Part shown: positions 30,211 through 47,122 of the stretch, one piece after another
How positions within the stretch are numbered: position 1 is the first letter of the stretch
How the letters are laid out: every line of letters starts with the position of its first letter
Assembly: GCA_033816765.1 (NCBI GenBank)
Contig: CM066292.1
Span: 4,340,001-4,404,000 of the forward strand
DNA from: Nothopassalora personata
Taxonomy: Eukaryota > Ascomycota > Dothideomycetes > Mycosphaerellales > Mycosphaerellaceae
DNA length: 64,000 bases
Direction: 5' to 3'
Notes under the pieces: model-generated
What the model was told of the DNA's origin: nothing
Databases searched by the model: none
Seen by the model: only the letters and a program-made list of their open reading frames with translations
Made by a program: the position numbers and the translations under genes

Positions 30211-30219
30211 CTATATATT
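30211..30219 (+). promoter_or_regulatory. TATA box of the U6 snRNA gene
   Basis: The sequence CTATATATT lies 21-29 bases upstream of the proposed U6 start at 30240. This is the spacing used by RNA polymerase III for TATA-containing U6 genes. Confidence 0.75.
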
Positions 30220-30426
30220 TTCATAGAAACTTCGGGCACGTGCCTTCGGGCATTGTGAGTCGTACCTTCCATCTGTACGGCGGTTGTGTCCTAACGACAT
30301 TGCAGTGGTCAATTTGAAACAATACAGAGAAGATTAGCATGGCCCCTGCACTAAGGATGGTACGTGAAGCCCACACTGTCGATTGCTGCAGGCATCAACT
30401 AACTCTAGATAGACACATGCAAGTGA

Positions 30427-30436
30427 GTTCGAAGCC
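30427..30436 (+). promoter_or_regulatory. B box (TFIIIC site) inside U6 intron 3
   Basis: GTTCGAAGCC matches the RNA polymerase III B-box consensus GTTCGANNCC. Fission yeast U6 likewise keeps its B box in its intron, so placement inside an intron has precedent. Confidence 0.65.
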
Positions 30437-30494
30437 GGCTGCAGACCTTCAATTCCTAAATGCTAATTTTACAAAGACAAGGATGAGCGAAACA

Positions 30495-30500
30495 TTTTTT
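30495..30500 (+). terminator. RNA polymerase III T6 terminator of U6
   Basis: Six consecutive T residues follow CGAAACA; a further T5 run lies at about 30510. This fits the 3' oligo-U end of U6. Confidence 0.75.
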
Positions 30501-31902
30501 GTCTAGATATTTTTGTTGGTCGCGATTACTTTTTGATGCCTTTCTGTGTGTTGTTCCTGCTTATTGTCGTGGTTCGGATATTTTGAGATAGCTTTTTGAT
30601 TGCGCGCACGCTGAGCCGTGGCGAAATTCTGCGAATTTGTATCGGACAGAACCATCGAGGCGTGAGACTCACTCGGGGCTGCAGAAAACCATCGGTACTT
30701 CGTTACAGAGCTGCTTCACTCACGAGTATCGGTCCATTGAAATATGCTGACGACAATACTTACAATTCCATATTAAGCAGCCCGAGCGACACTGTCGATG
30801 AGATCAGGAAGCACTACAGCTATGTGTTGGAGCACTCAGCTCATGGACCTGATGTCGTCAACAGCAAATCATGGCCAAGGGCTTCTACTGCGAACCGGAC
30901 TTCCCGTGCTCGCCAGCCTTCGTTGCAACCTGACACCCGCCTCCGTTCTGTGCCTTTCAAGTAAAAGTCCTTTGGGCTGTTCACTCCACGCCGGCCTGAC
31001 GTGGGCAACTGTTGGCGACACCAACGCCCATCCATTTACCCCTACTGCACCGACGGGCGGATCACCTATCATCCTGTGATAATAGTGTCGCTCTCCATGG
31101 TTTACCGAAAAGACTATGCACAAAAAGTTTCGCCCAGCCAATGGACCTAGTAAGGCTTGACAAGAACTTCTCACTGCATGACAGACCGTGGCTACAGGAT
31201 CAGGAAAAGCTAAATGGACGGTCCATGGCAAGTCCAGAGCATAGGCGCTTCGTGCCCATCAATTCCTTTGTACCGTGGCCGGCACCTACGTGATGTGCTA
31301 CTCAAGTACAGCTTATCGACCCGTCGGTTTATGCGAAGAAGTACTGCATCCTGTTACACTCATCGGCCGTATCCTTATGCTGAAGTAAGTCAGTTTGGCT
31401 TCCATCGCGATGCGCGAGCATCTCGGTTAAAGGAGCGGGCCCGCGCGGTGATTACTACGCCATTTCTCTAGAAGGAGGAGGAGATGTTCCGAGCTGGCAT
31501 TGCGGATCCTCGATATTGATGTAGCAAAGCGGCTGAAGGAACAGCTTGAGCGTAGTCGCCGACGTGCGTGATCCAGCGAGAAGAGATAAGTAGCAGTTCG
31601 CATATCTCGGAAGGTGAACATTGAAGTTTTTCCTGTCCCGCGCAGTTTCACGTGGAGACGACCATCATTTCTAGTGGTTTCCAAGCCGCGTCCCACGCAG
31701 TTCATGGAATCGAGACGCTTGAAATTATCAAGAGCTCTGCAAACAGCTGCGCACGGAATGATATCATGAGGCCATATCTGGGGCCAGGCGCAACCTGTCG
31801 GATTCCTCGCTGCCTTGTTGTTGGCAGATCAAGAATTGTATCATCATCTGCCGAGCGACCAATGACTGAGATGATGCTGAGGTATGTCTGCGCTTTCTGA
31901 CG
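30501..31902. other. No gene recognised
   Basis: Overlapping short frames on both strands with no recognisable product. Composition is normal. It lies between the U6 gene and decayed coding remnants. Confidence 0.45.
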
Positions 31903-33545: not shown

Positions 33546-35105
33546 CTACCTCCCTCCCCTTTTCTGCGCCTTCTCTTCATATTGCTGCGCCCTCCTCTTG
33601 AAAGCCGCCCTCTCCTCCTGCTTCCTCTTCTCCGGTGACTTTGCAATGTGTTGCTTCAGATTTTCCAATTTATCCTGCAGCTGATCCATGAGCCCATTCT
33701 TCGGCGTCGCAGGCTGTCCTGGCTGAATCATCTCCGCCGATGGTGCCGAGGTCGCTGCTGGATTCGGTGCTACCAGAGTCGTGTCGATTGTCCTGGGCTT
33801 CTTGTTGATGTTGGGTGATTGATAGCTCGGCGCCATGTACGCGGCATTCCTGCCACCCTTCGCGCCAGCCGATGCAGAAGGCTCAAACTTCTGCGGCTGC
33901 AAGCCCTTCGTCCTCTCCTCCAGCATCGCCGAGAGAAAGCCTCCCCGCTCTCCCGGTTTCGGCACATACATCGGTGCAAGGTCGAAGAAATTCCTCACAG
34001 CCCGTTGTTGCAACATCTTTCCCTGGATAATCCCCGTAGCAGATGATGCAGCAAACCACACGCACACAGCGCCCGACTGCCACGCAGTAATGAGGCAGAT
34101 TACGGCCGGCATACCCCACAACATAAACTTCTTCATGCCCGCCGTCAACTCACTCGGCGCCCCAGATCCACCACCCATCCGGGCCATGATGTGGAAGCTT
34201 CCAGCCATGATGATGGGCATGAGGAGGTATCCATCCGTCATGGTCAGATCTTGCAACCACAAGAAGCCCCCTGTTTGGAAACCTGGTACTGGCAGCTCCG
34301 AGGCTGCCCTCAGAATCTTGAAACTGCAAATCCCTATCACACCCTGCAGGACGCTGGGCAGTATTTGCTGTGTTACGCTGATGCCCGCTCTCTTCCGAAT
34401 CAATGCCAACTCTTTGTACGCCGTCATGACTTCCGCAGTATTACCTTCTTTCTGTGACTTCGCCATGCGATCCGTGATGGGTTTCATCATGGGTGTCAAA
34501 GCGTTCTGTCGTGCCATCATGTCGCTGGACTTCAAATATAGCGGAAGCATAACAGCACGGACGGCGACCGCCGTCGCTGCGATCGCTCCCCACCAGGGAA
34601 GACCACCCCATATGTGCAGGTGTTCGAGGACCCACTCGATCATCGAGGTTGGGCCGTAGCCAAAGTCCAACCCGATCTGCTTCAAGTAGCCAATGCCCTC
34701 TGGTATGCTCGAGATATCAAGTCCTTCGGCTGTTTTGGGCATGTTGTCCAATGTGATCGTGTCCAGGTCAGGCAAGGAGGATAGCGAGGATTCTGGTATG
34801 GGGGCGGTCGAGGGGTCGGCGGGAGTCTGTGTGATGGTGGTGGTGGTGGTGGATGCATGCCGGATCGCCGCGAGTGAGGACATCGCCGTCGGTATCGATC
34901 TCGTCCATGGCTGTGCTGTTCGTGTCGAGGAACCTGTTCGCGGTGATGTGTTGCGGACCAGAGGCTGGGGAGTGTATGAGAGCTGCATGTCGCATCAGTA
35001 TTGTAGGGGCCACCAGGCATGTCATTGTATTACATGTCGACATTGCTGCCGTATCAACGACGGCGCGTTGCCTCGCACGAGACGGAGGCCTCTGCTGGGC
35101 ATCAT
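33546..35105 (-). CDS. OXA1: OXA1, mitochondrial inner-membrane protein insertase
   Basis: Two exons, 35105-35034 and 34964-33546, with a 69-nt intron (GTAATA..CCCCAG), encode 496 residues. OXA1 inserts mitochondrially made and some imported proteins into the inner membrane (YidC/Oxa1/Alb3 family). Exon 1 supplies MMPSRGLRLVRGNAPSLIRQ, an Arg-rich presequence without acidic residues that relatives share. Without it the frame could start at ATG 34988 inside the intron, which is rejected. The YidC core spans about residues 140-345: helix 1 GGLPWWGAIAATAVAVR, later MARQNALTPMMKPITDRM, GVIGICSFKILRAAS, YLLMPIIMAGSFHIMA and WGMPAVICLITAWQSGA. The C-terminal 40 residues are Lys/Arg/Gln-rich and coiled-coil-like, as in the mitoribosome-binding tail. 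MIM1 lies directly upstream on the same strand. Confidence 0.94.
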
Positions 35106-47046: not shown

Positions 47047-47119
47047 GGCTAGGTAGCTTAATAGTAGAGCGTAAGCTATCTATACTCTTAAGGTCGTAGG
47101 TTCGATTCCTACCCTAGCG
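47047..47119 (+). other. tRNA-like sequence, RIP-damaged, with A and B boxes
   Basis: Acceptor strands GGCTAGG and CCTAGCG pair at six of seven positions. The D stem GCTT/GAGC pairs, the T arm GTAGG-TTCGATT-CCTAC pairs perfectly, and GGTTCGATTCC is a perfect B box. The anticodon stem does not pair. It could be the head of a tRNA-derived SINE or a mutated tRNA gene captured between repeats. Confidence 0.45.
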
Positions 47120-47122
47120 TCG

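Follow-up and report, generated by a model that had tools for sequence, protein, structure and literature searches.

The stretch of DNA analysed here, a 64,000-nt window of the genome of the ascomycete Nothopassalora personata (contig CM066292.1, positions 4,340,001 to 4,404,000), carries on its forward strand, between positions 30240 and 30500, a gene for the U6 small nuclear RNA (snRNA) that is probably divided into four exons by introns of 51, 53 and 54 nt (Table 1). The window was studied together with searches over the 54.5 Mb of the genome. Scanning it with the Rfam model RF00026 returned a U6 match at 30284-30383 (55.3 bits; gathering threshold 44); this match is centred on the core in exon 2, and both of its ends fall inside introns, the score being that of the unspliced form. 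When joined, the exons make 103 nt comprising a 5' stem-loop, the ACAGAGA box, the AGC triad, the internal stem-loop and a 3' domain that ends in T6. The gene contains an exact match to the 28-nt U6 core, and the fold of the joined exons agrees with these elements, though the stem-loop folds in the unspliced strand as well. A first-pass annotation made from the letters of the window alone had proposed a U6 gene with three introns at this place, whose removal would leave an RNA of the right length. Both proposals stand: the spliced model came out best of all those compared, and an intron-free paralogue and the predicted pairing with U4 and U2 agree with it, as detailed below.

Table 1. Features of the U6 locus in window coordinates, and loci of a tRNA-like RNA
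Feature	Position or loci	Strand	Basis and remarks
TATA-like box	30212..30217	+	Regular-expression scan; 28 nt upstream of U6 5' end
U6 exon 1	30240..30254	+	5' stem-loop GTGCC-TTCG-GGCAT plus T; fold of joined exons
Intron 1, 51 nt	30255..30305	+	GTGAGT..CTAAC..CAG; splice-model scoring
U6 exon 2, 54 nt	30306..30359	+	ACAGAGA box, AGC triad, most of internal stem-loop; Rfam RF00026
Intron 2, 53 nt	30360..30412	+	GTACGT..CTAAC..TAG; within 3' strand of internal stem-loop
U6 exon 3	30413..30422	+	ACACATGCAA; splice-model scoring
Intron 3, 54 nt	30423..30476	+	GTGAGT..GCTAAT..AAG; alternative 3' end AAG at 30481
B-box-like site AGTTCGAAGCC inside intron 3	30426..30436	+	8/10 consensus positions, statistically weak
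U6 exon 4 (3' domain)	30477..30500	+	T6 at 30495-30500, terminator-like for RNA polymerase III; aligns with 3' end of intron-free paralogue L001
tRNA-like RNA loci	L016, L019, L020 (by eye), L021, L029, L030, L033, L034, L038, L039, L042, L045, L047-L049, L051, L052		

The splice junctions were examined by enumerating, with a script, all products obtained by removing zero to three introns of 40-75 nt with GT/GC..AG ends, and by scoring the resulting 15,718 products against three references: the Rfam consensus, a U6 sequence found on a contig of a metagenome-assembled genome (MAG; locus L010), and the genome's own intronless U6 paralogue (locus L001). The three-intron model of Table 1 received the top summed score, while the unspliced form ranked 10,797th. 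Taken singly, the references differ at some borders. With the Rfam consensus alone, intron 3 ends at 30481; with L010 alone, intron 1 starts at 30250; with L001 alone, intron 1 starts at 30259 and intron 3 at 30419. The 12 best models agree on intron 2 and on where intron 1 ends. The least certain junction is the 3' end of intron 3, where the AAG at 30476 scores 323.5 and the AAG located 5 nt further on, at 30481, scores 321.0. The former appears preferable because it leaves the branch site 10 nt from the intron end, as in the other introns, and because it gives a slightly stronger predicted U2/U6 helix II (-12.7 kcal/mol, compared to -11.5 kcal/mol with the end at 30481).

The same helix bears on whether the third insert is an intron at all. 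If only introns 1 and 2 were real, this insert would belong to an extended U6 3' domain ending at a T4 run (30469) or at T6. The AAG acceptor, a departure from the usual YAG (fungal U3 introns have YAG acceptors in all but one case, according to a passage of PMC5832005), would fit such an arrangement, and a strand left unspliced to the T4 run still pairs with the U2 5' end, with a predicted energy of -9.0 kcal/mol. Pairing is stronger, however, once the third insert is removed, a value of -12.7 kcal/mol being reached in 28/1000 shuffles. Furthermore, each of the three references favours the three-intron model over the two-intron products (157 or 126 nt), by 15 to 23.5 units; exon 4 has its counterpart at the 3' end of L001, whose 3' domain aligns to exons 3 and 4 with a score of 22.0, as opposed to 2.0 for the form unspliced to the T4 run; and the signals of intron 3 (GTGAGT, GCTAAT, 10-nt spacing) fit those of the remaining 12 introns that we placed by hand in this genome (see below). 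An extended 3' domain is thus very unlikely.

Besides the AAG acceptor, a number of observations weigh against a gene split in three places. The internal stem-loop has a predicted energy of -8.4 kcal/mol in the unspliced strand and -7.2 kcal/mol in the spliced one; as the unspliced fold is no less stable, this element is uninformative on splicing. In the remainder of the window, a branch-site spacing of 11 nt is found 5 times (0.8 in shuffles) and one of 10 nt once (1.03), so that the 10-11 nt spacing may be in part a general property of this genome. The raw Rfam score of the intronless paralogue, 61.4 bits, exceeds the 55.3 bits of the window gene. Finally, of the RNA polymerase III (Pol III) layout of Schizosaccharomyces U6 genes, a TATA box and a T6 run are present, and the B-box-like site of intron 3 is a weak match (8/10 consensus positions; P = 0.043 in 2000 shuffles). 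The internal promoter that the first-pass annotation had placed in this intron is plausible but weak by sequence, and the idea of an intronic B box was already in the title of Frendewey 1990 for Schizosaccharomyces. With these points set against the evidence above, the U6 gene and its introns are still very likely to be real. As for the process itself, we infer from the sequences that splicing takes place at all of the small-RNA introns described here.

When the 54.5 Mb were searched for the 28-nt U6 core with up to three mismatches allowed, two matches were obtained: the exact one in the window and L001, with two changes. L001 is a diverged, intron-free U6 located at C3:3902167, which retains the ACAGAGA box, the AGC triad and the stem-loop region and has a T run and a TATA box (locus position 1473). 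Being intron-free, it can be aligned with the window gene straight through each of the three junctions; it therefore confirms the junctions while weakening the claim that the cell needs to splice its U6. A canonical intronless U6 was not found among the 47 of 2821 Rfam candidates that were scored, nor in the core-pattern search of the genome. Thus, the check for an intact intronless U6 elsewhere yielded one intronless homologue, but a diverged one. The initial assertion of a spliceosome obliged to splice the precursor of its own catalytic RNA is not borne out in this form, given the copy on C3. One might go further and suppose that the C3 copy supplies the cell's U6 and that the window gene survives as a silent relic. 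The signals kept in L001 and its higher raw Rfam score would be compatible with this, as would the distribution of differences between the two genes, which affect 3/40 positions in the core and 20/70 in the rest (Fisher P = 0.013). On the other hand, it is the window gene that has the canonical 28-mer, one of the two changes in L001 producing, as read by hand, a C-A mismatch in U2/U6 helix Ia, and the splice signals are intact at all three window introns. Moreover, U2 and U4 are divided in a similar manner, the intron-bearing copies (L007 and L004) scoring better and the intronless ones (L008 and L005) being diverged. It is highly improbable, in our judgement, that the window gene is such a relic. 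One exact U6 pattern was also sought in viral contigs, with 0 matches, and one in prokaryote contigs, with a single match: the eukaryote-like U6 of L010 (104.9 bits), carried by JAIYDP010000129.1, a bacterial contig labelled Verrucomicrobiaceae MAG. This is probably a eukaryotic contamination of the MAG bin.

Judging from their sequences, the U1, U2, U4 and U3 genes of this genome appear to bear introns similar to those of U6. Altogether, 13 introns were placed by hand in U6, U2, U4, U1 and U3; all 13 measure 51-59 nt, have GT/GC..AG ends and show their best match to a CTRAY-type branch site 10-11 nt before the 3' end. U4 is represented by three loci, all above the Rfam cut-off: L004, with a single intron directly after ATCCG that has a GC donor; L006, with two introns; and L005, diverged and intron-free. 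The three Rfam loci for U2 score 86.9 (L007), 70 (L008) and 40.4 bits (L009), the cut-off being 46. The top-scoring of these, L007 (minus strand), has four introns by hand reading, including one of the GC-AG type; they delimit a 7-nt exon, ATCTGTT, and one of them lies within the branch-site-recognition sequence (GTGTAGT^ATCTGTT). L008 is diverged and without introns, and L009 is a U2-like 3' half. A further U2-like 3' end is found at C5:800880-800940 (L075) following ATCTGTTGTGAGT, as at an exon-intron border of L007, and is perhaps a truncated copy of a split U2 gene. Three intronless U1 loci (L011-L013) score 45.3, 41.7 and 39.9 bits, below the Rfam cut-off of 69.5, with the full ATACTTACCTTG 5' end present. 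Two U1-like loci, L028 (28.7 bits) and L036 (assigned to U1 by eye only, and not called U1 by Rfam), are interrupted within the 5'-splice-site-recognition sequence (ATACTT^ACCTTG and AAACT^TACCTTG, respectively). The U3 gene (L050; 116.7 bits) has one intron. U5 was found neither by an Rfam scan in which the controls, too, were without matches nor by pattern searches; it is possibly split or diverged. Hence, in a single ascomycete, the genes for U1, U2, U4 and U6 would all be split and each would stand beside an intron-free copy, the diverged copies of U6, U4 and U2 lying on contigs C3, C8 and C1, respectively. The set of apparently split U1, U2, U4 and U3 genes is a stronger find than that of U6 alone.

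The predicted pairing among these RNAs was used to look at the junctions between molecules. U6 pairs with spliced U4 (L004) through stem II (-23.1 kcal/mol) and stem I (-8.4 kcal/mol). In a comparison of the two forms of U4, stem II has an energy of -21.7 kcal/mol with spliced and -17.2 kcal/mol with unspliced U4, and to judge by these models the junction of the U4 intron makes sense between molecules. As to whether the intron-free copies work, differences from the canonical genes are fewer in the core than in the rest in U4 (6/60 vs 36/95) and in U2 (4/39 vs 76/166), as in U6. This conservation hints at constraint on the intron-free copies, although it may reflect the canonical genes alone. 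Intron-free U6 pairs at -16.1 kcal/mol with intron-free U4 and at -22.7 kcal/mol with canonical U4. Intron-free U2 and U6 can form six continuous predicted base pairs that include helix Ib, with an energy of -7.8 kcal/mol (a value without shuffle control), the three remaining combinations lying between -5.3 and -6.1 kcal/mol. The answer from the pairing models is mixed, and a matched parallel spliceosome with co-adapted intron-free U6, U4 and U2 is not supported as a whole. It is conceivable, if unlikely, that the spliceosome depends on the splicing of its own U1, U2, U4 and U6 precursors, in a feedback loop on splicing capacity, and that the intron-free U6, U4 and U2 paralogues are retained, along with U1 copies lacking introns, as a reserve from which splicing can begin once spliced snRNAs run out. 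The six-pair run between intron-free U2 and U6 is a hint in this direction; the weaker pairing of intron-free U4 with intron-free U6 argues the other way.

A sequence box made of TTTTCATC, 16 to 40 nucleotides and GGAGAAGA occurs 45 times in the genome, compared to once for the reversed control, and follows 7/9 of the Rfam-found U1, U2 and U4 loci (L004, L006-L009, L011 and L013), being degenerate by eye at L005 and L012. It is also present after the U3 gene and after both split U1 loci, L028 and L036. Some of the 45 occurrences (such as L018 and L053) look like chance by eye, and the box is perhaps a 3' signal for small RNAs made by RNA polymerase II. Four other loci (L070, L071, L062 and L067) look like small-RNA genes, with an Sm-like site and a downstream TTTTCATC, and are partly U1- or U4-like by eye. 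The box also accompanies a multicopy tRNA-like RNA in which the anticodon loop is replaced by about 60 nt of structured sequence (Table 1). Among the loci examined, 24 distinct copies were identified by pattern, 18 of which have the box no more than 230 nt away. Rfam, run on 20 loci (about ten with this RNA), called only L019 a tRNA (43.8 bits), and ARAGORN found 0 in 10 loci; this may be a new RNA family. In the window itself, Rfam reports a tRNA at 47047-47120 (plus strand; 49 bits) that ARAGORN does not call. Outside the U6 gene, the window has 24 intron-like patterns, compared to 16.3 in shuffled sequence. A snoZ30-like match at 30475-30553 (20.7 bits; gathering threshold 50) was rejected, as the energy of its duplex with U6 was reached by 110/1000 shuffles and by 88/740 other stretches of the window.

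In the explanation that we propose, the window gene would be the genome's main U6. Pol III would transcribe it from the TATA box to the T6 run, perhaps with help from the B box of intron 3, and the U2-type spliceosome would splice the precursor three times, yielding a U6 RNA of 103 nt (or 98 nt); the diverged intron-free copies of U6, U4 and U2 would still work. The introns would likely stem from repeated gain in small-RNA genes, through reverse splicing or through introner-like elements that have since decayed. A passage of PMC10484740 gives reverse splicing as the origin proposed for the fission-yeast U6 intron because of its position near catalytic nucleotides, an argument that by analogy would fit the present U6 too. 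Alternatively, the introns could be fresh copies of introner-like elements, as described for this fungal family. Such elements are reported from Fulvia, Dothistroma and relatives in a passage of PMC4457414, and an Oxa1-like protein encoded in the window (33549-34994, minus strand) has its nearest named proteins in Dothistroma, Zasmidium, Lecanosticta and Pseudocercospora, on the count of this one protein; these genera belong to the Mycosphaerellales, which agrees with the Dothideomycetes named in the first-pass annotation. Yet in BLAST against the genome the whole U6 gene has no match besides itself, and the L007 U2 gene matches, apart from itself, two U2-like 3' ends. In addition, pairwise identity among the 13 introns is at most 0.67, their folds are not unusual (z from -1.21 to 1.84), and their 51-59 nt are near the 50-55 bp that the same passage gives for regular introns. 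Recent introner-like copies were thus not found for the U6 and L007 U2 introns, those of U4, U1 and U3 having not been searched against the genome, and we consider an origin from fresh copies extremely improbable.

A single U6 gene with an intron is a curiosity. If, in one genome, the genes for U1, U2, U4 and U6 are indeed all interrupted, in part within the sequences that recognize 5' splice sites and branch sites, the spliceosome would have to serve itself in the making of most of its RNA components. With all of them in one organism, an old question can be put to the test, namely whether it is the location of snRNAs in the catalytic centre that leads reverse splicing to insert introns into their genes. 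A second question raised is how such a circular dependency starts and is buffered, for which the intron-free paralogues are a candidate answer.

The view, taken in the first-pass annotation, that this U6 is unusual for an ascomycete was overstated, since fungi are already reported to have introns in U6, also more than one per gene, as well as an intronic B box. Canzler, Stadler and Hertel reportedly described in 2016 how fungal U6 genes acquired introns repeatedly and independently, often more than one in the same gene. The U6 gene of Rhodosporidium dacryoidum reportedly has four; Rhodotorula hasegawae is reported to have introns in U1 and U5 as well. The gene described here resembles such fungal U6 genes in having several introns in one U6 and differs in that U1, U2 and U4 appear to be split too in the same ascomycete, a feature absent from the literature passages covered. 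With the U6 of Schizosaccharomyces (Tani and Ohshima 1989; Frendewey 1990) it shares the mRNA-type intron and the B-box-like site within an intron, the latter named in the title of Frendewey 1990; here, however, there are three introns, other snRNA genes are split, and a diverged intronless U6 is present. According to a passage of PMC5832005, frequent interruption had been known for only two small structured RNAs, U3 and U6. The short GT-AG introns of fungal U3 small nucleolar RNA genes in that passage are like those found here, where U3 has one, but in this genome U1, U2 and U4 also appear to be interrupted. The literature searched, from which most subscription journals were missing, yielded no account of introns in the U1, U2 or U4 genes of an ascomycete. 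The closest likeness outside U6, introns in spliceosomal RNA genes, is with the basidiomycete Rhodotorula hasegawae, whose U2 gene has an mRNA-type intron (the title of Takahashi 1993 names an intron in the Rhodotorula U2 gene); the present case concerns an ascomycete, extends to U4 introns and, by hand reading, involves four introns in one U2 gene with an exon of 7 nt.
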